Shown here: positions 5,031-17,313 of the stretch, piece after piece
Numbering within the stretch: position 1 is the first letter of the stretch
How the letters are laid out: every line of letters starts with the position of its first letter
Notes under the pieces: model-generated
What the model was told of the DNA's origin: nothing
Database searches by the model: none
Seen by the model: only the letters and a program-made list of their open reading frames with translations
Program-made: the position numbers and the translations under genes
Source: Aquimarina algicola
GTDB lineage: Bacteria; Bacteroidota; Bacteroidia; Flavobacteriales; Flavobacteriaceae
NCBI RefSeq assembly: GCF_006443095.1
Contig: NZ_VFWZ01000002.1
Span: forward strand, 248,001 to 312,000
Reading direction: 5' to 3'
DNA: 64,000 bases

Positions 5031-5600
5031 ATGGAAGACATTGTAGCTGAAAAATTAGAATTACTTAAACAGAAAAATGAAGAGGCTTATGATGAATTCA
5101 CTTCGGCTTTTGAAACCGGAGCAAGTAAAAAAGGAGAAGTATTAATCCCTATGAATCAAGTATGTAAAAGGCTTTACATATTAGAATCTGGTTGCGCAAA
5201 ACAATTTAGATACAAAGAAGATGGTACAGAGCATATCACATGGTTTAATTTTGAAGGTGATGTAATGACTGCTTATGCCAGTTTTGTTACTGCAGAACCT
5301 AGTTATGAGGGGGTTCAAATTCTTGAAGATTGTGAATATATACACATATCTAGAGACACATGTTATGCATTAGCAGAAAAATATCATGCTGTAGATACTT
5401 TTTTCAGAGAATTGTTAGAATTATATTACATAGCAGCAGATGAACGCCTATTTTTTTTACAGGCATATTCTGCAAAACAAAAATATGAGTACATGCTTAA
5501 AAATATGCCGCACTTTTTACAAAGAATACCACAAAAAGAACTCTCTTCTTTTTTGGGTATTACAAGAGAAACACTAAGTAGAATAAGACGTTACTCTTGA
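5031..5600 (+). CDS. Crp/Fnr-family regulator, tandem copy 1
   Basis: 189 residues. A cyclic-nucleotide-binding-type barrel (KKGEVLIPMNQVCKRLYILE, SGCAKQF, WFNFEGDVMTAY) is followed by a C-terminal HTH with recognition helix QKELSSFLGITRETLSRIRR. The protein ends immediately after that helix and lacks the second wing of longer Crp proteins. It is highly similar along its whole length to the next gene, so the two are a tandem duplication. No adjacent target operon is evident. Confidence 0.87.
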   Translation: MEDIVAEKLELLKQKNEEAYDEFTSAFETGASKKGEVLIPMNQVCKRLYILESGCAKQFRYKEDGTEHITWFNFEGDVMTAYASFVTAEPSYEGVQILEDCEYIHISRDTCYALAEKYHAVDTFFRELLELYYIAADERLFFLQAYSAKQKYEYMLKNMPHFLQRIPQKELSSFLGITRETLSRIRRYS

Positions 5601-5758
5601 TTGGAGAATTATTTTTTGATCGTTTATACTTGTTTCTTAAAAATTTTGAGAGCATCTTTAAATAGATGTAAACAATTTTCTTGATAACAAAAATATTTTA
5701 TTTCTTTATGCCGTCTTTATAATAACAGTTCTCTTAAAGACCAAAGCACATAAAATTA

Positions 5759-6331
5759 ATGGAAGATAATATTCTACAACAAAAACTAGAATTGCTTAAA
5801 AAGAAAAACGAAAAAGCTTATTTAGAATTTACGTCATCTTTTGAGGTTGGATCAAGTAAAAAAGGAGAATTATTAATTCCTATAGATAAAATTTGCACAA
5901 AACTTTATATACTAAAGTCTGGAGTTGCCAAACAATTTAGGTATAAAGAAGATGGATCAGAATATATCAGTTGGTTTAATTTTGAAGGTGATATGATGAC
6001 TTCTCATATCAGCTTTGTCTCACAAAAACCTAGTATTGAAGGAATAAAAATCATCGAAGATTCTGAATACACCTTTGTACCTCGTGATGTCTGCTATGAA
6101 TTATCAGAAAAATACCATGCCGTAGAAACATTTTTCAGAGAGATTTTAGAAATGTATTCACAAGCCGCAGAAGAAAGACTATATTTTTTACAGGCATTAA
6201 GTGCTAAACAAAAATATGATTATATATTAAAAAACATGCCTCACCTTCTTCAAAGAGTACCACAAAAAGAATTATCTTCTTTTTTAGGCATCACTCGTGA
6301 GACATTAAGCAGAATTCGAAAACATTCTTAG
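5759..6331 (+). CDS. Crp/Fnr-family regulator, tandem copy 2
   Basis: 190 residues. Paralogue of the preceding gene with the same architecture: N-terminal helix, barrel (LYILKSGVAKQFRYKEDGSE, WFNFEGDMMTSH), and a terminal HTH almost identical to copy 1 (QKELSSFLGITRETLSRIR). The recognition helices are nearly the same, so the two may bind the same sites; differences concentrate in the ligand-binding half. It has its own upstream region (158 bp), so independent transcription is likely. Confidence 0.87.
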   Translation: MEDNILQQKLELLKKKNEKAYLEFTSSFEVGSSKKGELLIPIDKICTKLYILKSGVAKQFRYKEDGSEYISWFNFEGDMMTSHISFVSQKPSIEGIKIIEDSEYTFVPRDVCYELSEKYHAVETFFREILEMYSQAAEERLYFLQALSAKQKYDYILKNMPHLLQRVPQKELSSFLGITRETLSRIRKHS

Positions 6332-6509
6332 TCGATTTCTAAAATAGTAATCATTTTTCAATTCTTATCTTAATCACCTAGCAAGATTAACCTCTGCCTT
6401 TATTGACGTTGGTTTTCTTTTTGTCTAATACTTTTTAGATTAAAAAACCGAAAATAAAACAAAGTACTAAAAATCAAACACTTGCATTAATTGACATTTG
6501 TCACACGTA

Positions 6510-6558
6510 TTCCATTTTGATCCCTATAGATTTGTATCAAAAATAAATCAAAATGGAA
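6510..6558. promoter_or_regulatory. 12-bp inverted repeat around promoter and start codon (operator candidate)
   Basis: TTCCATTTTGAT (6510-6521) is perfectly repeated in inverse orientation as ATCAAAATGGAA (6547-6558). The right arm covers the ATG of the wHTH regulator, and a TAnnTTTG -7 box (TAGATTTG, 6527-6534) lies between the arms. The arrangement suits autorepression of the efflux operon by its first gene product. This is inference. Confidence 0.5.
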
Positions 6559-7011
6559 AACCAGTCATATATTCACTTATTTCCACTTCTTATACGAAGA
6601 GAATTTTACCCTCCTGCCATGGGTAAAATATTAAAAGCTTTTTACTCTTCGAACAAAAAATACTTGTCTCTTGAAGAATTAAAAAGTAAAACTCAGTTAA
6701 ATCAAAATGAAATTGAAGAAGTACTAAATAAACTAAAAGTTGTTGGAGAAGTAAAACATGATGCAACAACAATGGCAGAACAAGACTTGTTTTATTTGGA
6801 TACTGAAGGTTGTATAGAAAGCCTACATACTATCATAGAAGAAAATCGAATCCTCATTGAGTTTTTAGAAGAAATTATAGAAACCCGAGACTCATCTAAT
6901 AAAGCTTTAAATCAATTTATAAAAAGCTCTATCGCTTTTAATAGTGAAGTCCTGGACGTTATCGAACGAACATTTAAAGAATATTTTACAAAAAAAGATC
7001 CTAACTCATGA
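6553..7011 (+). CDS. winged-helix regulator of the efflux operon
   Basis: 152 residues. An N-terminal helical winged-helix domain (residues about 20-85: GKILKAFYSSNKKYLSLEELKSK, then NQNEIEEVLNKLKVVGEVKH) resembles GbsR/MarR-type regulators. It is followed by a long amphipathic dimerisation helix (TIIEENRILIEFLEEIIETR). It overlaps the substrate-binding/TolC fusion gene by 4 bp (ATGA), so it is the first gene of a four-gene RND operon and probably its local repressor. It sits over a 12-bp inverted repeat. Confidence 0.72.
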   Translation: MENQSYIHLFPLLIRREFYPPAMGKILKAFYSSNKKYLSLEELKSKTQLNQNEIEEVLNKLKVVGEVKHDATTMAEQDLFYLDTEGCIESLHTIIEENRILIEFLEEIIETRDSSNKALNQFIKSSIAFNSEVLDVIERTFKEYFTKKDPNS

Positions 7012-9353
7012 AAAAGTTATTTTTATTTTTTGCGCTTTTAAGTCTTTCTCTTACCATATCAGCTCAGAAAAAATCTTATCAAATAGGAGTGTTATTAGAA
7101 ACTCGAAATGAAATGATTAACACTCAATTAAAAAAACTTCAAAATGAAATCAAAACAGTAGTTGGAGAAGATGCAATTATCATTTTTAATGAAAAAGATA
7201 TATTGATTAATGATTATAAAATTGATATCGCTCAAAAACAATATGATCAGCTGATCAATAATGACGTTGATATCATTCTGGCATTTGGAGTCACGTATAC
7301 AAAAATAATAGCTCAACAAAAAGAACATAAAAAACCGACAATCTTGTTTGGAGCGATTAATAAAGATTTTAATACTGTAGACCTGCCAAAAGAAAAATCA
7401 AATATCGATAATTTCACATATCTGGTAGAACCAGAATCTTATAGAAAAGATCTTGAAAGATTAAAATCATTGACGAACTTCAAAAGAGTTGGGATCATTA
7501 TAGAAAAACAGTTTATAGACTTTTTATCAGTCAATAATACCTTTGATACGATTTTAAAGTCTTTGGATGCAGAATATACGCTGATTCCTTTTGAATCAAT
7601 CTCGGATATCGAATCAAATCTGGATGATGTTGATGCTGTTTATCTTGCAGGTGGTTTTTTTATGAGCGACACAGATGTAAAAAAACTTTCAGACATATTT
7701 ATTGAAAAAAAACTCCCTTCTTTTACCATAAATACGACTAAACAAGTAGAAAAAGGGATCATGGCTACCAATAATCCTAATCGTATTTTTGATCAATTTA
7801 TACGTAGAGTATCACTAACAATTGAGAGATATATCAACGGTACTCCTCTATCTGAAATACCTGTTGCTATTGATTACAAACCACAATTAACACTCAATTA
7901 TAATACTGCAGAGGCGATAGGAATTCCTATAAAATATAGTTTGATTAATGACACAAACTTTATTGGTGAATTTGATAATGTGTTATCAGAAGAAAAGTAT
8001 AGCCTTGTAGAAGCTGTAAATAAAGCTTTAAACAAAAATCTAAATTTACAGGCTTCCAAAAAAAATGTTGAACTTAGTAATCAGGATGTCAAGACAGCCA
8101 AAAGTAATTATTTACCCAATCTTACTGCTAGTGCTACTACTAATCATGTAGATCCGGATGTAGCAGCCTTAGGATTTGGGCAAACTCCAGAATTTCAAAC
8201 CTCGGGAAATCTTACACTACAACAAACTATTTTTTCTGAATCTGCAAATGCCAATATAACTATTCAGAAAAATTTATTGAAAGCCCAACAAGAAACACTT
8301 AATGCAGAATCACTTAATACTATTTTCAATGTTTCAAATGCATACTTCAACACTTTGGCATTAAAAGCGAGTGCACAGATTCAAAAAAGTAATCTTGATC
8401 TGACCAAAAAAAACTATCAAATCGCAGAACAAAATTTTGAAGCCGGGCAATCAAGCAAATCAGATATGCTACGCTTTAGAAGCCAAATGGCACAGAATAC
8501 ACAAACAATGATAGAAGCTGTAAATCAGCTTGAGCAAGGGTTTATCACATTAAATCAATTATTAAACAATCCTGTAGAAACCAAAATCGATATCAATGAT
8601 GTAACATTAGATGATGGGATCTTTAGTGAGTATCAATATGAACAACTTGTAGGATTATTAGATGATCCAACTACAAGAGAACCGTTTATCGAATTCTTAA
8701 TTCAAGAAGCCAAAAACAACTCTCCCGAATTGAAAGCAATAGGTTACAACCTAGATGCTACAGAACGTTCTATCAAACTAAATGGTTCTGGGCGGTTCTT
8801 ACCAACAGTACAATTACAGGGACAGTATAACACCATTTTTGACCGAAGCGGAGAAGGTAGTGATCCTCAACCCGGATTTACCCTACCAAATAACAACTAT
8901 AATATTGGGGTAACAATGTCTATCCCTATATTTAATAGAACACAAACAAATATCAATCGTCAAACTTCGATCATACAAAAAGAACAGTTAAGTATTAATA
9001 GAGAAAACACCGAACTAACAATCAATACTAATATAAGAAACGGTATTCTCAACGTTATTAATCAAATAACCAATATCAGGTTATCCAAAGTTTCTGAAGA
9101 GACCGCAAAAGAAGCATTAGAATTAACTCAGGTATCTTATTCAAAAGGTGCTGTAAATGTAGTGCAACTCATAGATGCTCAAAATAATTATCTAAATGCA
9201 CAATTAGCGAGTATGACTGCAGTATACACATATCTAACTAGTGCATTACAAATAGAACGATTTATAGCCCACTACTTTTTGCTTAGTAGTAAAGAAGAAA
9301 ATAACGCACTTACGCAACGATTTCTTCAGTACCTAAATACAAAAACCAAATAA
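7008..9353 (+). CDS. substrate-binding domain fused to TolC-like outer membrane efflux protein
   Basis: 781 residues, nearly twice the usual TolC size. After a signal peptide (ends TISAQ), residues about 22-310 form a periplasmic-binding-like domain of the ABC_sub_bind type (YQIGVLLETRNE, VDIILAFGVTYTKII, DAVYLAGGFF, INTTKQVEKGIMATNN). Residues about 330-770 are an outer membrane efflux domain with the two TolC-type coiled-coil repeats (LVEAVNKALNKNLNLQASKK, later YNIGVTMSIPIFNRTQTN). It presumably forms the outer membrane channel of the tripartite pump encoded downstream. The fused sensor-like domain is unusual and may bind the substrate in the periplasm. Confidence 0.85.
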   Translation: MKKLFLFFALLSLSLTISAQKKSYQIGVLLETRNEMINTQLKKLQNEIKTVVGEDAIIIFNEKDILINDYKIDIAQKQYDQLINNDVDIILAFGVTYTKIIAQQKEHKKPTILFGAINKDFNTVDLPKEKSNIDNFTYLVEPESYRKDLERLKSLTNFKRVGIIIEKQFIDFLSVNNTFDTILKSLDAEYTLIPFESISDIESNLDDVDAVYLAGGFFMSDTDVKKLSDIFIEKKLPSFTINTTKQVEKGIMATNNPNRIFDQFIRRVSLTIERYINGTPLSEIPVAIDYKPQLTLNYNTAEAIGIPIKYSLINDTNFIGEFDNVLSEEKYSLVEAVNKALNKNLNLQASKKNVELSNQDVKTAKSNYLPNLTASATTNHVDPDVAALGFGQTPEFQTSGNLTLQQTIFSESANANITIQKNLLKAQQETLNAESLNTIFNVSNAYFNTLALKASAQIQKSNLDLTKKNYQIAEQNFEAGQSSKSDMLRFRSQMAQNTQTMIEAVNQLEQGFITLNQLLNNPVETKIDINDVTLDDGIFSEYQYEQLVGLLDDPTTREPFIEFLIQEAKNNSPELKAIGYNLDATERSIKLNGSGRFLPTVQLQGQYNTIFDRSGEGSDPQPGFTLPNNNYNIGVTMSIPIFNRTQTNINRQTSIIQKEQLSINRENTELTINTNIRNGILNVINQITNIRLSKVSEETAKEALELTQVSYSKGAVNVVQLIDAQNNYLNAQLASMTAVYTYLTSALQIERFIAHYFLLSSKEENNALTQRFLQYLNTKTK

Positions 9354-9377
9354 ATCACGATTTTAAAATAATTAACA

Positions 9378-10463
9378 ATGAAACATATAGCCAAAATCAT
9401 AAAAATATCTTTTATCATCATCCTACTGGTATCCTGTACCGAAGAGAAGAAAAAAGAAGAAGTATTTCTAAGACCTGTAAAATCTCAAGAAGTTGGATAC
9501 TTAGGAAATAACAAAATAAGAACCTTCAGTGGTTTTGCAGAAACAGACAAGGTTATAGATTTAAGTTTTAGAAACACTGGAATTATCTCTCAATTTGACA
9601 TCAAATTAGGTCAAAAAGTAAGCAAAGGTCAACTGCTTGCAAAACTAGATAATGTTCAGGCAAGGTTATCCTATGAGCAATCTGTTGCACAATTAAATAC
9701 TGCCGAATCTCAATTAAACACTGCCAAATTAAGCTTAGACAGAGTACGTTCATTATATGAAAAAGAAAGTGCTTCTCTTAGTAATTTTGAATCTGCAAAA
9801 AATGCTTTCAAGACTGCACAACAAAATTATGAATCTGCAAAAAGAGGTGTGGCCATACAACAAGATCAGATCAGCTTCGGCCATTTGTACGCCCCAGAAG
9901 ATGGCATCATCTCTGCAGTTTCTTCAGAGATCAACGAGAACGTATCTCCCGGACAGCCTATAGCAACATTAGATGCAGGAAGAGATATGGAAATTAGCTT
10001 AGGAATACCAGAAAGCACTATTAATGAAGTAAAACAAGGTGATACAGCAGATGTAAGTTTTACAGCATTACCTGGTAAACTTTTTAAAGCAACAATAACA
10101 GAAGTAGCTCCATCAATTTCTGCACAAACAGCTACGTATCCAATAAGAATTACTTTACTAGACTCCACCAAAGACGTCAAAAGTGGTATGGCTGCCAATG
10201 TTACTTTCAATTTTGGGAATACTATTTCTAGTGAAAAAGTAGTCATTGTACCCACAAGTGCTGTAGGCGAAGATCATAACGGAAGATTCGTATTGCTCAT
10301 TGTAGAAGAAGGAGACAACGCAGTGATAAAAAAACAAACTGTAACTACAGGAAATTTGACTACAGAAGGGTTTGAAATCACTTCTGGAGTCAGTGCAGGG
10401 CAACGTATCGCAACTGCAGGATTACAAACATTACTCGACGGACAAAGAGTAAAAATTCAATAA
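9378..10463 (+). CDS. RND efflux periplasmic adaptor (HlyD/AcrA family)
   Basis: 361 residues. Lipoprotein signal (LLVSC, Cys at about residue 20) anchors it to the inner membrane. Barrel-sandwich lipoyl motif (FDIKLGQKVSKGQLLAKLDN), a helical hairpin at about 90-150 (QLNTAESQLNTAK), the second lipoyl half (LYAPEDGIISAVSSEINENV), then beta-barrel and membrane-proximal domains. Lies 24 bp after the TolC fusion and 19 bp before the pump. It should connect the two. Confidence 0.93.
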   Translation: MKHIAKIIKISFIIILLVSCTEEKKKEEVFLRPVKSQEVGYLGNNKIRTFSGFAETDKVIDLSFRNTGIISQFDIKLGQKVSKGQLLAKLDNVQARLSYEQSVAQLNTAESQLNTAKLSLDRVRSLYEKESASLSNFESAKNAFKTAQQNYESAKRGVAIQQDQISFGHLYAPEDGIISAVSSEINENVSPGQPIATLDAGRDMEISLGIPESTINEVKQGDTADVSFTALPGKLFKATITEVAPSISAQTATYPIRITLLDSTKDVKSGMAANVTFNFGNTISSEKVVIVPTSAVGEDHNGRFVLLIVEEGDNAVIKKQTVTTGNLTTEGFEITSGVSAGQRIATAGLQTLLDGQRVKIQ

Positions 10464-10482
10464 ACTATACAAATATTGTATT

Positions 10483-13400
10483 ATGAATTTAGCAAAGTTT
10501 TCAATCGAAAAAAATAGAATTACCCTAATGGTATTAGGAACTATAATTCTAATGGGAATCATTATATATTCTAGTTTATCAAGAGATAGTATGCCTCCTT
10601 ATACCGTAAGGGTTGCCAATATTATTTCAGAGTTTCCGGGAGCAAGCCCAGAACGAATAGAATTATTAGTTACAGATAAAGTTGAAAAAATCGCTCAGGA
10701 ATTGCCTGAACTTAAAGAGGTAAGCAGTACTTCTAGATCAGGACTTTCTGTAGTGACAGTAACACTCAAAGAAGATGTAAAACCTCAAAAGATGCAATCG
10801 GTTTGGGATCGATTACGACGTAAATTAAAAACAATCGAAGGGTTACCGGAAGGAGTCGCACCTTTTTTGGATGATGATGGTGTTGGAGAAGTATATGGTA
10901 TCGTAGTAGGTGTTACTTCTGATGGGTATTCTTATGCAGAAATGAAAGACTATGTCGATGATATCAAAGATGATTTGATCAAAATCCCGGATGCCGCCAA
11001 AGTAATATTGGGTGGTGTACAACAAGAACGTGTATTTATAGAGTTTGATAATGCTCGTTTAAAAGAATATGATATTTCATCATCAAAATTGCAACAAATG
11101 ATATCTGCGACCAATATCTTAAGTTCGGGAGGAGAAATTAATGTTGGTGATGAACGCATCATTCTAGAGCCAACCGGAAATTTTAACTCTATAGAAGATA
11201 TCAATAACATGTTGGTTCCTATAGGAGAAAATAATTCTCAACTCGTTAAACTTGGTGATATCACTTCTATAAGAAAAGGATATATCGATCCATCAATACA
11301 AAAAGTACGTATTAATGGTAAAAATGCAATCTCGTTACACGTTAATCTCAAAAAGAATTCTAATATTATAAAGCTTGGAGAAGATGTAGATGAGACGCTT
11401 TTAAAATGGAAAAAGAAACTCCCTGTAGGACTAGAATTAACAAGAGTTTCATCTCTAGATACTTATATTGATAACAAAGTAAGCAACTTTATCAATAACC
11501 TATTACAATCTATAGGAATTGTTCTTGCTGTTATGCTTATCTTCTTAGGTTTTAGAACAGGTATGATTATCGCGAGCTTAATCCCAATTGTTACAATCAT
11601 GACGCTTATGATTATGGGATTACTAGATGTAGGGTTAAATCAGGTTACCCTTGCCGCTTTGATCATGGCATTAGGTATGCTGGTTGATAATGCTATTGTT
11701 GTTGCAGAAACAGTTATGGTCAAAATAGAACAAGGACTACAACCTAAACAGGCGGCGATAGAAGCCTGCTCAGAACTGTTCATGCCTTTATTAATTTCTA
11801 CACTCACTACATCTGCTGCATTTTTAGCTTTTTATATGTCGCCAACCAATATGGGTGATATTGTAGGGCCTATATTTGTTGTCATCTCAATAGCTTTGCT
11901 ATCGTCCTGGATCATTGCATTAACTATAATCACAATGTTTTGCTATTTATTTTTAAAGGTAAAACCAGCATCTGAGAAAAAAATCAGTTTAATAGACAAG
12001 ATCATCAACAAATTAAAGGTTCGCTACAAAAATCTCATTTTAAAAGCCTTACATCATAAGTTAAAAGTTATCATAACTATTCTGGTTGTTTTTATGATAT
12101 CAATATATGGTTTCTCATATATCCCTTTCTTGTTTTTCCCGGATAGTGACAGAAATATGATTACTGTAGATATCAATTTACCTGAAGGGACAAAAGTCGA
12201 AAGAACAACAGAAATTGTAAAACAAATAGAACAGTTTATGACAGATTCTTTACAGACTAATGAGAATAGAACATCTGGTATAGTAGACTGGTCATCATAT
12301 ATAGGCCAAGGTCCCGAATCTTATGACCTTGGATACTCGCAAGACGAAGCAAATTCGAGCTACTCGCATATTCTTGTAAACACTTCTTCTTTTGAAGTAA
12401 ACAAAACTATGATTGCAAAACTTGACAAATTTGGATTTAACAACTTTCCTAATGCAGATATCAAGGTAAAAGCTCTTGCTGCAGGAGGAGGTACAGTACC
12501 TATAGAAATAAAAGTACAGGGAGAAGATCCTGTTGAGTTATCCAAAATTGCAAATGATGTAAAAAGAAAACTTAATGAAATTTCAGGAACCAAAAATGTA
12601 AAAGATGATTGGGGACCAAAAAGTAAAAAGTTTTTAATTGAAATTGATCAAAATAGAGCTTTGGCTGCAGGAATCAGTAGTCAGGATATCGCTATATCTT
12701 TAAAAACAACTTTAGACGGTTTTCAAACAGGAGAATATAGAGAAGACAATAAGTCAATCCCTATCTTAATGCGAAATGACGAAAGCCAGCAACAAACCCT
12801 TGCTTCTTTAGAAACATTAAATATCTATGCGCAATCAACAGGAAAAAGTGTTCCTTTATTACAAGTAGCATCCATAATACCACAGTGGCAATACGGTAAA
12901 ATCAGGAGATTTAATCTTCGTAGGACCGTTGCTGTTACATCAGAGTTAAGAGAAGGTGGTAATGCCGCAACGATTACAAAAGAAATTACTCCCTGGCTCG
13001 AAGAACAAAAAAAGAATTGGCCAGACGAATATACTTACGAGTTTGGTGGAGACGAAAAAGATACCGCAGAAAACATGGGGTCTGTAATCGGATATTTACC
13101 ACTATCTGCATTTATCATTGTACTGTTGTTAGTCATACAATTTAATTCTTTTAGAAAAATGAGTATGGTTGTTCTTACTATCCCATTGGCTATTATAGGT
13201 GTTGTTGTTGGTCTATTGGTTTTTAGAGAACCATTTGGGTTTATGCCTTTTTTAGGTACTATTTCTTTGGCAGGAATTGTAATCAATAATGCAATTGTAC
13301 TCATTGATAGAATGGAGATTGAACAAAGAGAATTGAATCGAAAAATCGAAGATGCCATTATCACAGCTTGTTTACAACGTTTTAGACCAATTCTACTTGC

Positions 13401-13602
13401 AACTTTTACAACCATATTAGGACTTATTCCTTTGTACTTAAGTGGAGGAGAAATGTGGGAAGGTATGGCTGTAAGCATTATGATAGGATTACTTTTTGGA
13501 ACTGTAATCACATTGATTTTTATCCCTTCATTATATAGCGTACTCTTTAAAGTTAATTACAAAGGTTACACGTTTAACGAAGAACTCCTGAAAGACTCTT
13601 AG
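10483..13602 (+). CDS. RND-family efflux pump permease (AcrB-like)
   Basis: 1039 residues, normal length for an RND pump. Twelve membrane segments in two repeats, each with a large periplasmic loop. The proton-relay region is in TM4: ALIMALGMLVDNAIVVAE carries the acidic residues expected there (one D in LVDN, not the DD pair of AcrB). The second repeat has GTISLAGIVINNAIVLIDR. It imports protons to drive export through the adaptor and TolC fusion. Substrate unknown; solvents, dyes or metabolites are possible. Confidence 0.93.
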   Translation: MNLAKFSIEKNRITLMVLGTIILMGIIIYSSLSRDSMPPYTVRVANIISEFPGASPERIELLVTDKVEKIAQELPELKEVSSTSRSGLSVVTVTLKEDVKPQKMQSVWDRLRRKLKTIEGLPEGVAPFLDDDGVGEVYGIVVGVTSDGYSYAEMKDYVDDIKDDLIKIPDAAKVILGGVQQERVFIEFDNARLKEYDISSSKLQQMISATNILSSGGEINVGDERIILEPTGNFNSIEDINNMLVPIGENNSQLVKLGDITSIRKGYIDPSIQKVRINGKNAISLHVNLKKNSNIIKLGEDVDETLLKWKKKLPVGLELTRVSSLDTYIDNKVSNFINNLLQSIGIVLAVMLIFLGFRTGMIIASLIPIVTIMTLMIMGLLDVGLNQVTLAALIMALGMLVDNAIVVAETVMVKIEQGLQPKQAAIEACSELFMPLLISTLTTSAAFLAFYMSPTNMGDIVGPIFVVISIALLSSWIIALTIITMFCYLFLKVKPASEKKISLIDKIINKLKVRYKNLILKALHHKLKVIITILVVFMISIYGFSYIPFLFFPDSDRNMITVDINLPEGTKVERTTEIVKQIEQFMTDSLQTNENRTSGIVDWSSYIGQGPESYDLGYSQDEANSSYSHILVNTSSFEVNKTMIAKLDKFGFNNFPNADIKVKALAAGGGTVPIEIKVQGEDPVELSKIANDVKRKLNEISGTKNVKDDWGPKSKKFLIEIDQNRALAAGISSQDIAISLKTTLDGFQTGEYREDNKSIPILMRNDESQQQTLASLETLNIYAQSTGKSVPLLQVASIIPQWQYGKIRRFNLRRTVAVTSELREGGNAATITKEITPWLEEQKKNWPDEYTYEFGGDEKDTAENMGSVIGYLPLSAFIIVLLLVIQFNSFRKMSMVVLTIPLAIIGVVVGLLVFREPFGFMPFLGTISLAGIVINNAIVLIDRMEIEQRELNRKIEDAIITACLQRFRPILLATFTTILGLIPLYLSGGEMWEGMAVSIMIGLLFGTVITLIFIPSLYSVLFKVNYKGYTFNEELLKDS

Positions 13603-13626
13603 TCGATAAAAACATAGCTCTATTAG

Positions 13627-13649
13627 TCTGATCATTTGATTAGATCAGA
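13627..13649. repeat. inverted repeat after efflux operon
   Basis: TCTGATC and GATCAGA form a 7-bp stem around a 9-nt spacer between the pump and SDR genes. No T-run follows, so it is not a clear terminator. It could be a weak terminator or a binding site. Confidence 0.4.
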
Positions 13650-13702
13650 ATTGAACACCCTAAAAACAAGGGGAATTTCTAATCACAAATAATTAAAATG
13701 TC

Positions 13703-14530
13703 ATGAAAGTAATAAAGGTAGAAAGAAAAAATGCGCTAATTACCGGATCTTCTGGAGGTATTGGTTCTGCTGTCGCAAGAAATCTGGCAAAAAAAGGATA
13801 TCATCTGATTTTGGTAGATATTAATCGAGAAGATAATGAAGTTCTGGCTTCAGAATTACCTAGTGCTAGAGTAATTACACTTGATCTTACTAATAGAATT
13901 GCGCTTCAAGAGTTTTGTAGAAAAATCCCTCAATTTAATCTTGATATCGCTTTTATCAATGCAGGTGTCATACATCCGGGAGATGTCACTAATATATCAG
14001 AAAAGATAATCGATTTACAACTGGATATTAATCTACGTAGTGCCATATTAATCAATAAAGCCTGCGGAAATTATATGAAAAGTAAAAAGAAAGGTAACAT
14101 TATAAATACTGTATCTACAGGAGGTGTTTTTGGTTTAAAATCAAGTGCAACTTATAGTGCTACCAAATTTGGACTCCGAGGTTTTTTAATGGCGTATCAT
14201 TCAGAATTGAAGCCTTATGGAGTACATGTATCCGGTATTTATTCGGGTGCTGTAGATACACCTATGCTTCTTCATGAAACTTTAAATGGCGGTAGCGCAA
14301 TGAATTTTATAGACAAACCGAGTACCGTTGATGATCTGGTGAAAGCCTTTAATAAAGCATTGAATACCGGTAAATTAGAAATTTATGTTCCTAGTATTAA
14401 TAGTTTTTTTCCAAAAATTTTAGGAGGACTCCTGCCCGGATTTATTCCCAAATTATATCCTACCCTAGAACGTATTGGTAAAAAAGGGCAAAGAAAATAT
14501 TTAAATAGTTTAGAAGAACAAATTATTTAA
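13703..14530 (+). CDS. short-chain dehydrogenase/reductase (SDR)
   Basis: 275 residues. Classical SDR: cofactor motif ITGSSGGIGSAVARNLAKKG, Asp after beta2 (LVDINRE, favouring NAD), NAG motif (AFINAGVIHPGD), catalytic Ser (NTVSTGG) and YSATK (Tyr-x-x-x-Lys). The C-terminal extension after the core is Pro-rich and hydrophobic (LGGLLPGFIPKLYP), which hints at membrane association. Substrate unknown. It follows the pump by 100 bp and precedes a membrane cyclase. Confidence 0.9.
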   Translation: MKVIKVERKNALITGSSGGIGSAVARNLAKKGYHLILVDINREDNEVLASELPSARVITLDLTNRIALQEFCRKIPQFNLDIAFINAGVIHPGDVTNISEKIIDLQLDINLRSAILINKACGNYMKSKKKGNIINTVSTGGVFGLKSSATYSATKFGLRGFLMAYHSELKPYGVHVSGIYSGAVDTPMLLHETLNGGSAMNFIDKPSTVDDLVKAFNKALNTGKLEIYVPSINSFFPKILGGLLPGFIPKLYPTLERIGKKGQRKYLNSLEEQII

Positions 14531-14591
14531 ATCTACATCATACCGATCAAATCAAGAGGAAGTCATTTTTTATATATAAGACCTCATAAGA

Positions 14592-15743
14592 ATGGAAATA
14601 GTAAGTAGAAACCTAAACGAATATCTAAAACATCTGTACAGATCTATAATCTTTTGGACAGTAGCAATGATCTTATTCTCAATATTTAGATATTATGCGT
14701 TAGACGAAGAAATTGGTATTACTATAAAATCTGTATACAATAGTTTTTATAGTAATCATAAAACGATCTTCAGTTACGGTTTTGGTGGATTTCTAGTGGG
14801 TATTCTATATGCCACCATAGAATTTTATTTTGATAAGTTTGTTTCAAGAAGAATTATTCCATTAGGAGTTAATATCCTTATTCAAGGTATCCTTATTTTT
14901 ATTTCGATAATAGTGATTTCATATTTGGTAACTAGGCTCACTATTTCTATAAACAATATTCCTTTTAATTTGAGTCCGTATTGGTGGTATCAAGATCAAT
15001 CTTTTTGGCCTTTATTACTGTATGTATTATTTTCTTCTTATATCTTTTCCATGTTCATTATCATTTCAGAAAAATTCGGAAAAGGGGTGTTTTTTAAAAT
15101 GCTTATAGGAAAGTATAAATACCCAAAAGAAGAAGAACGTATATTTTTATTTCTAGATCTAAAAAGCTCCACTACAATAGCCGAAATTCTCGGACATTTT
15201 AAATACAGCCAATTGATACAAGATTGTTTTTATGACCTAAATGAAGTTGCTCCAAAGTATCAGGCAGAAATTTACCAATACATAGGTGATGAAGCTGTTA
15301 TGTGTTGGCCCTATAAACAAGGGATATCTGGTAATAATTGTGTGAATTTATTTTTTGCATTCAAACAGAAAATTCATTCAAAAAAATCCTTTTATATGAA
15401 AAAATATGGTATTGTTCCAGAATTTAAAGCAGGGATTCATGGAGGAGTACTCATGGTTGCAGAAGTAGGTGTTATTAAAAAAGAACTTGCCTATCATGGC
15501 GATGTAATCAACACCGCTGCGCGTATTCAAGAACAATGTAATGTTCATGATGTATCTATTCTTATTTCAGAAAAATTATTAAGTGATCTCAGTATTGCAC
15601 AATATTATACCCCAAAATTTATGGGTACAGTACTATTGAAAGGAAAAGAAAAAGAAATTAATATTCACACACTTTATCCGGAAAAAGAAATACTTGAAAC
15701 CACTAAAACTAATGTATCATCAATAATGTTTTTGTTTATATGA
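14592..15743 (+). CDS. membrane-bound class III adenylate/guanylate cyclase
   Basis: 383 residues. About four transmembrane segments fill residues 15-160, followed by a class III nucleotide cyclase domain (about 175-370). First metal Asp in FLFLDLKSSTTIAE, second in YIGDEAVMCW, and a dimer-interface region GIHGGVLMVAEVGVIKKELAYHGDVINTAARIQ. Fold and metal ligands look intact, so it probably makes cAMP (or cGMP) inside the cell. The Crp-like proteins in this window could in principle bind the product, but no direct link is visible. Confidence 0.88.
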   Translation: MEIVSRNLNEYLKHLYRSIIFWTVAMILFSIFRYYALDEEIGITIKSVYNSFYSNHKTIFSYGFGGFLVGILYATIEFYFDKFVSRRIIPLGVNILIQGILIFISIIVISYLVTRLTISINNIPFNLSPYWWYQDQSFWPLLLYVLFSSYIFSMFIIISEKFGKGVFFKMLIGKYKYPKEEERIFLFLDLKSSTTIAEILGHFKYSQLIQDCFYDLNEVAPKYQAEIYQYIGDEAVMCWPYKQGISGNNCVNLFFAFKQKIHSKKSFYMKKYGIVPEFKAGIHGGVLMVAEVGVIKKELAYHGDVINTAARIQEQCNVHDVSILISEKLLSDLSIAQYYTPKFMGTVLLKGKEKEINIHTLYPEKEILETTKTNVSSIMFLFI

Positions 15744-15796
15744 ATATCATTACTTAACAAATATCACCCTTAATCAATAAATGTATAACCCTCGAA

Positions 15797-15819
15797 GTGA
15801 TGGTAAAAAAAGCCATCAC
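15797..15819. other. hairpin in nhaD leader
   Basis: GTGATGG and CCATCAC form a perfect 7-bp stem 21 nt upstream of the nhaD start. An A-run follows rather than a T-run, so it is not a terminator on the plus strand. A leader structure affecting translation is possible. Confidence 0.35.
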
Positions 15820-15843
15820 AAAAAATAGTAATTAAATTAAATT

Positions 15844-17313
15844 ATGTTAAAATATTTTCTTGGCAATAGCCCAAAATGGTTTAAAACTATAATCATTGGA
15901 TTTCTGGTCTTTAATATCTTTTCTTACTTTATTTTAGGCCCTACAATAACGGCTTGGTTATTTATAGGAGAGTTTATTTTTACCCTTGCAATGGCGCTTA
16001 AATGTTATCCGCTACAATCCGGTGGATTACTAGCCATAGAAGCATTGGCTTTACATCTTACCACTCCAAAAAATGTATACCACGAGGTAGAGCATAACTT
16101 AGAAGTCATCTTACTTCTGGTGTTTATGGTTGCCGGTATTTACTTTATGAAACCCTTATTAATGTATATTTTTAGTAAGGTTTTTACCAAAATCAAATCC
16201 AAAGTATTACTATCTCTATTATTTGTTTTTTTAGCAGCTTTATTATCTGCATTTCTAGATGCGTTAACGGTTACAGCTGTATTAATTAGTGTAGCAGTTG
16301 GATTTTATGGTGTGTATCATAAAATCCATTCAGGATCTGGAGATTATGACCGAAGCGGAGTATTAGACAAAAAAGAATTGAGCGGAAAAACTTTAGAGCA
16401 GTTCAGAAGTTTCTTAAGAAGTCTTGTCATGCATGGAGTGGTTGGTACTGCGCTTGGCGGGGTTTGTACTTTGGTAGGAGAACCTCAAAATCTATTGATT
16501 GGAGAACAAATGGGGTGGGATTTTATAGAATTTTTCTTAAAAACTGCACCAATATCGATACCTGTACTTATTGCAGGGTTACTTACAACAGTACTTTTAG
16601 AAACTACAGGAATATTTGGTTTTGGAGAGAAACTACCAAAAATTGCAAGAGAAATTATTGAAAACTATACATACGAAGAAGATCGTAATAGATCACATCA
16701 GGCAAAAATGGGGCTAATCATACAAGGAGTATCTGCATTACTTCTTATTGCAGGGTTGGCTTTACATATTGCACCGGTAGGATTTATCGGGTTAGCTTTA
16801 ATCATCGTTCAAACAGCATTTATGGGGATTACAGAAGAACATCAATTAGGCAAAGCTTTTGAAGAAGCACTACCATTTACAGCTCTTATTGTAGTTTTCT
16901 TTGTTATTGTAGCTATGATACATGATCAACACCTATTTAAGCCAATTATCGATTGGGCTTTATCATTAGATCCGGGCACACAACCTTCGATGTTTTATGC
17001 AGCTAATGGCGTATTATCAATGATCAGCGATAATGTTTTTGTAGCAACTGTATATATTAATGAATTAAAAGAAGCTTTTGATCATAAAGTAATCTCTAGA
17101 GAACAATTTGAAAAATTAGCTGTTGCCATTAATACCGGAACAAATTTACCAAGTGTTGCTACTCCTAATGGACAAGCTGCCTTTTTATTTTTATTAACCT
17201 CTTCTCTGGCTCCTTTAATTGGACTGTCTTACACCAAAATGGTAAAAATGGCATTTCCATATACAATAGTATTAGGAGGAGTAGGGTTATTAGGCATTAT
17301 ATTCTTCTTATAA
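15844..17313 (+). CDS. nhaD: NhaD-type sodium:proton antiporter
   Basis: 489 residues with about 12 membrane segments. Family-diagnostic stretches of the NhaD/ion-transporter superfamily are visible: [15 protein letters not shown] (acidic residue in membrane), [38 protein letters not shown] and [21 protein letters not shown]. It exchanges Na+ (or Li+) for H+ across the inner membrane, as expected in a marine bacterium. It stands 100 bp after the cyclase gene and ends at a bidirectional terminator. Confidence 0.93.

Follow-up and report, generated by a model that had tools for sequence, protein, structure and literature searches.

Outer-membrane factors of the TolC/OEP type are usually viewed as ducts that adaptors open. 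In TolC, the N-terminal helix leaves the equatorial ring in the direction of the outer membrane, and in TolC-YbjP of E. coli an extra periplasmic domain lies on the TolC surface, between equator and membrane (both as described in PMC13082787). The solved structures of the ABC_sub_bind family of binding proteins considered below hold Phe, Trp or Tyr, according to PMC6816091. Here we describe a single chain that joins these two types of protein, encoded in a 64,000-nucleotide stretch of Aquimarina algicola DNA, hereafter the window. None of the titles and abstract openings listed by our full-text literature searches, which did not extend to bioRxiv preprints or to the bulk of subscription journals, describes such a fusion.

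Domain composition and operon of the fusion

The window fusion consists of a signal peptide, an N-terminal domain (N-domain), a linker of about ten residues, and an outer-membrane channel (Table 1). A pattern search for a lipobox gave no hit in any of 27 fusions, with start codons picked by a simple rule. Judged from sequence and model, the channel part is complete. It contains two OEP stretches (Pfam PF02321, E = 1.4e-58, 198.2 bits against a cut-off of 22) and four β-strands per protomer in an AlphaFold2 model of the full chain, computed as one protomer (pLDDT 82.6, pTM 0.62). Residues 332–755 match TolC structures in phmmer, and Foldseek superimposes the modeled channel onto TolC (7ng8, E = 6.6e-19, TM-score by target 0.81).

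Table 1 Features of the fusion gene and its operon; the linker span overlaps the nominal end of the N-domain (7982)
Feature	Position	Strand	Basis and remarks
Gene of 152 aa, no family assigned	6553..7011	+	Overlaps fusion start by 4 bases (ATGA)
Fusion ORF	7008-9353	+	ATG start, single 781-aa chain
Signal peptide, Sec type, without lipobox cysteine	7008..7064 (res. 1-19)	+	Translation; putative cleavage site
ABC_sub_bind-like two-lobed domain (predicted)	7065..7982 (res. 20-325)	+	Profile against PDB, PF04392 matches of relatives, AlphaFold2 model, structure matches, hhalign
Short linker, N-domain to channel	7968..8000 (about res. 321-331)	+	Alignment A2 and domain limits; limits approximate
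Complete TolC-type outer-membrane factor	8001..9272 (res. 332-755)	+	Pfam OEP, phmmer to TolC structures, Foldseek
Periplasmic adaptor (membrane fusion protein)	9378..10463	+	TIGR01730 RND_mfp, 232.7 bits against cut-off 94.9
RND permease	10483..13602	+	ACR_tran, E = 6.3e-167; nearest solved structure by sequence MexK (9xwg, E = 7.7e-174)

Searched as a whole, the window's own N-domain matches no Pfam family even at E ≤ 10, and its second half alone yields two sub-threshold DUF matches under the same limit. Single-sequence searches of the PDB gave no match with this domain and nothing useful with those of its relatives, and the PF04392 model, searched in the window's own genome, did not pick the domain up. 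The label ABC_sub_bind, which a preliminary description had given it, therefore cannot be shown from the window sequence alone.

The assignment comes instead through the relatives and through predicted structure. Alignment A1 comprises 27 N-domains, that of the window and 26 relatives with 25–59% identity to it. Its profile matches 3lkv (E = 3.3e-4) and 6hni (E = 2.7e-3) in the PDB and, weakly, 3lft (0.17), which is ranked above unrelated entries that begin at 0.53. PF04392 matches 4 of the 27 domains at E ≤ 0.001 (best 2.8e-10, with no match for the window) and 8 of the 27 at E ≤ 10; the fusion from Sulfuricurvum scores 38.6 bits against a cut-off of 25.9. An AlphaFold2 model of the N-domain has high confidence (pLDDT 89.4, pTM 0.85). 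When it is searched with Foldseek, three proteins supply the five best-ranked chains, with E-values from 1.2e-14 to 2.2e-13: CD0873 (6hnj, 6hni), 3lft (two chains), and 3lkv. The sixth match follows at 9.3e-7. We take 3lkv, 6hni, and 3lft to be PF04392 members. VIA-align superimposes the model on these structures with Z-scores of 22.7 (3lkv), 22.1 (6hni), and 22.1 (3lft), over 281–284 aligned residues and with an rmsd of 4.2–4.6. Aligned by hhalign with 16 stand-alone proteins found by PF04392, the fusion N-domains give a probability of 98 and an E-value of 1.7e-13. The stand-alone set was made of frames of 310–400 aa chosen from 30 loci, with L119 left out as an unrelated ORF. The N-domain is thus predicted to adopt a type I two-lobed binding-protein fold, nearest to ABC_sub_bind structures, and its homology to this family is settled by the PF04392 matches of the relatives together with the predicted-structure matches. 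The preliminary description had also read the ORF as one chain with a complete TolC-like channel in an exporter context and had proposed structure prediction as a check. The translation, the OEP stretches, the TolC structure matches, the downstream genes, and the two models bear it out.

These downstream genes lie on the same strand as the fusion and, from their sequences, complete an operon of outer-membrane channel, adaptor, and energized pump. The scan of nine genes within 5031–17313 revealed no importer permease or ATPase. Upstream, relatives of the 152-aa gene occur at 2 of 39 fetched loci, so this gene is not a conserved partner, and no conserved upstream partner was found at the fetched fusion loci. 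Two tandem Crp-like proteins (5031-5600 and 5759-6331) precede the window operon and may regulate it; their cNMP-binding matches lie over the cut-off and their HTH matches below it.

Among the 39 loci first examined, 34 carry the fusion, and 32 of these have an adaptor and an RND permease downstream on the same strand. The two exceptions are L061, where the contig ends after the adaptor, and L084, whose fusion (L084:5576-8440) has no adaptor or RND match within the 12.7 kb fetched. All three fusion loci fetched later have both genes. The fusion of Sulfuricurvum kujiense is followed by genes annotated as an HlyD adaptor, an RbbA-type ATPase, and an ABC permease, not by RND. These ABC-type exporter genes indicate that the N-domain is tied to the channel and not to the RND pump.

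Recurrence and co-inheritance of domain and channel

The N-domain profile matches 28 of 149 sampled family genomes at E ≤ 0.001, the window's own counted. Full-length fusion frames of 778–832 aa are present in 25 copies in 24 of the 149, again including that of the window, and in G015 a contig boundary truncates one further copy. In the three remaining genomes, the match is to a broken N-domain remnant (G122) or is weak and lies outside a fusion (G118, G042). The remnant (L088, G122 C86:56851-57270) has several stops, and no channel match was found in the 11.8 kb fetched around it. Within the genus, 21 matches in frames of 776–811 aa were found in 20 of 37 genomes. These counts rule out an assembly artefact or chance as the origin of the fusion, and with the adaptor and RND genes at nearly all fusion loci they substantiate the presence in other flavobacterial RND operons that had been proposed as a check. 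In the window's own genome, the A1 profile matches the window copy only; another OEP channel of this genome lies inside a 1454-aa frame (C12:677723-678829) and is perhaps part of a different fusion. A scan of genome contigs confirmed one relative, L009.

Across the phylum, the A1 profile matches at least 13 of 296 genomes, a lower bound, since G290, G337, and G341 were missed though they carry the N-domain. The channel lies in the same frame in 11 of the 13 (the window and ten others), and the remaining two are importer-permease fusions. The latter (L086:2730-5561 and L087:6959-10771) are BPD_transp_2 importer permeases with two and three PF04392 stretches in the chain, respectively, and were rejected as channel fusions. 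Two further candidates picked by length, L110 and L115, turned out to be sensor kinases.

The arrangement extends beyond this phylum. In tblastn searches against plasmids, Sulfuricurvum kujiense, from a second phylum, carries a full fusion with 24% identity over residues 25–772. Plasmids of Cetobacterium somerae, from a third phylum, encode channels of the same subfamily with an adaptor and RND. Their N-regions are shorter, and the profile match is weak (L122, E = 3e-4) or absent (L123, E = 0.74). Automatic annotation names the relatives either 'TolC family protein' or 'ABC transporter substrate binding protein', which hides the fusion.

Searches with the channel alone reveal how closely the two parts travel together. 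Among the 149 family genomes, 26 channel matches were found at E ≤ 1e-30, 25 of them in frames of 778–832 aa and the remaining one cut by a contig; a stop was reported inside one of the 25 (G066). A wider channel profile run over the 296 phylum genomes gave 14 matches of at least 355.9 bits in frames of 782–955 aa, followed by a drop to 145.2 bits for the next match, a 474-aa frame. All 14 best matches carry the N-domain, including the three weakest (G290, G337, and G341), which, tested directly, gave N-domain E-values of 4.3e-22 to 6.7e-25. Because these genome searches score a limited number of first-look candidates (6 per genome in the phylum channel search, for instance), channels with lower scores could have escaped them. 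With a 26-sequence channel profile, channels without an N-domain at the fetched loci score at most 79.9 bits and distant fusions at least 187. Since the N-domain accompanies all 14 best matches and the score then falls, the channels form, by sequence, a distinct subfamily that bears this domain in the genomes sampled.

A chance or recent gene fusion devoid of function, for which one could cite the broken remnant in G122 and the lack of conserved upstream genes, is hardly credible. Full-length copies recur in the family and genus and in a second phylum, no close channel relative lacks the N-domain in our samples, and the co-inheritance counts of the channel searches at family and phylum level contradict it. 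From sequence and models together, the window protein is almost certainly an ABC_sub_bind-family binding-protein domain placed N-terminally on a TolC-type channel, and it belongs with other outer-membrane factors of this build to a subfamily of their own.

Possible ligand site and roles of the N-terminal domain

Comparison with the 16 stand-alone proteins revealed that residues invariant among them are replaced in the fusions. The Asp of an Asp-Asn motif, present in 16/16 stand-alone members, is Gly in 24/27 fusions. An equally invariant Thr (16/16) is Val in 14/27 fusions and Thr in only 4/27, and an Asn found in 14/16 stand-alone members is Glu or Asp in 24/27. The Asp and Thr expected of a functional importer binding protein are largely lost in the fusions. 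Judging from the fold, the replaced positions would contact the ligand directly. Five A1 positions (91, 190, 218, 231, and 278) are common to both groups. The fusions carry an invariant set of their own, some of it close to the ends of strands in the model, as well as a strongly conserved helix motif, F-F-R-R-x-x-L-x-x-E (A1 positions 245–254).

In a cleft test, the five positions that follow each strand (ten strands in the model) were compared in conservation with the rest, using 306 circular shifts. The strand ends are not more conserved (mean 2.43 versus 2.67 bits), and 266 of the 306 shifts reach at least that score, or 287 of the 306 when the hinge strand is left out; the opposite strand ends average 2.61 bits. 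With crude windows placed without model coordinates, the test speaks only weakly against conservation of a ligand site. Taken together, the rewritten residues and the negative cleft test make it unlikely that the domain binds amino acids as its known relatives do; it may bind a different ligand or a protein partner. The preliminary description had named a degenerate, non-binding fold as the finding that would speak against it. The domain looks partly degenerate with regard to amino-acid binding of the known kind; the fold itself does not, and both lobes are kept. The N-domain also evolves faster than the channel, with a mean pairwise identity of 44% versus 55% and the lower value in 323 of 325 pairs.

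The course of the TolC helix and the short linker would place three N-domains around the channel waist, where they may ring the trimeric channel in the mid-periplasm. We tentatively favor a repurposed, ligand-responsive domain, a reading to which we give a little less than an even chance. In its least certain step, the N-domain would have changed from capturing amino acids to serving as a ligand-responsive clamp tethered to the channel. Opening and closing of this clamp on a periplasmic small molecule would then alter channel opening or adaptor engagement. This preference rests on the retention of the whole two-lobe fold and on the position of PF04392 at the head of the PAS/histidine kinases at L110 and L115. 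Counted against it are the loss of the positions invariant in stand-alone proteins, the cleft test, the faster evolution of the N-domain, and the short N-regions of Cetobacterium; nor did a ligand, regulator or phenotype come to light. The periplasmic substrate sensing or gating put forward in the preliminary description is likewise a hypothesis.

The same retained lobes with rewritten residues, together with the precedent set by YbjP, mean that a purely structural role is nearly as likely and a serious possibility. The N-domain would then be a docking module whose surface braces the channel waist, contacts peptidoglycan or the adaptor, or aids outer-membrane assembly, with no small ligand. 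Such a role agrees with the rewritten positions, the lack of extra conservation at strand ends, the conserved helix motif, the shortened N-region in Cetobacterium, and the position of the lipoprotein YbjP, which occupies the corresponding part of TolC in E. coli (PMC13082787). LpoA, whose entry names it as a regulator of PBP1A, is also among the Foldseek matches to the N-domain model. Against a structural role, both lobes persist in 26 relatives at 25–59% identity, which a simple spacer would not need, and some of the invariant residues lie near model strand ends.

The N-domain might instead capture export substrates in the periplasm and pass them to the pump, raising their local concentration. 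Substrate capture is the normal role of substrate-binding proteins, and the window operon includes an RND pump related to MexK. Yet a domain attached to the channel would sit beyond the substrate-entry sites of RND pumps, and residues of the stand-alone type are lost. The occurrence of the same N-domain with ABC-type exporter genes makes this hand-over less likely still, and we regard it as improbable.

The repurposed ligand-responsive domain that we favor has a more far-reaching form, in which three clamps around the channel waist would, on binding a molecule in the periplasm, act directly on the opening of the channel or the docking of the adaptor, in RND and ABC-type exporters alike. We consider such a ligand-gated efflux duct rather unlikely; if true, it would define tripartite exporters whose outer-membrane component is under ligand control as a class.

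Comparison with known systems

Each half of the fusion is already known; their stable combination, their co-inheritance, and their occurrence with two pump types have no counterpart among the papers listed by our literature searches. The fusion represents an import-type module recruited into export machinery, and a widespread subfamily with a two-lobed domain makes sensing or regulation at the duct a testable question. With the TolC/OEP outer-membrane factors, it shares the two OEP stretches, the four-strand contribution of each protomer to the barrel, the long helices, and an operon with adaptor and RND. It differs from them by ~305 extra residues, the binding-protein domain, ahead of the channel, by the absence of a lipobox, and by scores that set it apart as a separate subfamily. 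With ABC_sub_bind proteins (3lkv, 3lft, and CD0873/6hni), the N-domain has in common the predicted fold and a distant sequence homology over ~280 residues. In contrast to them, it is fused to a channel, stands apart from importer genes in the region scanned, and has lost the residues conserved in stand-alone members. The sensor kinases at L110 and L115 also carry PF04392 near the N-terminus ahead of another output, in their case a PAS-histidine kinase rather than a channel. The nearest arrangement on TolC itself is that of YbjP, which is a separate lipoprotein, placed in DUF3828 by PMC13082787, whereas the window N-domain is part of the channel chain.
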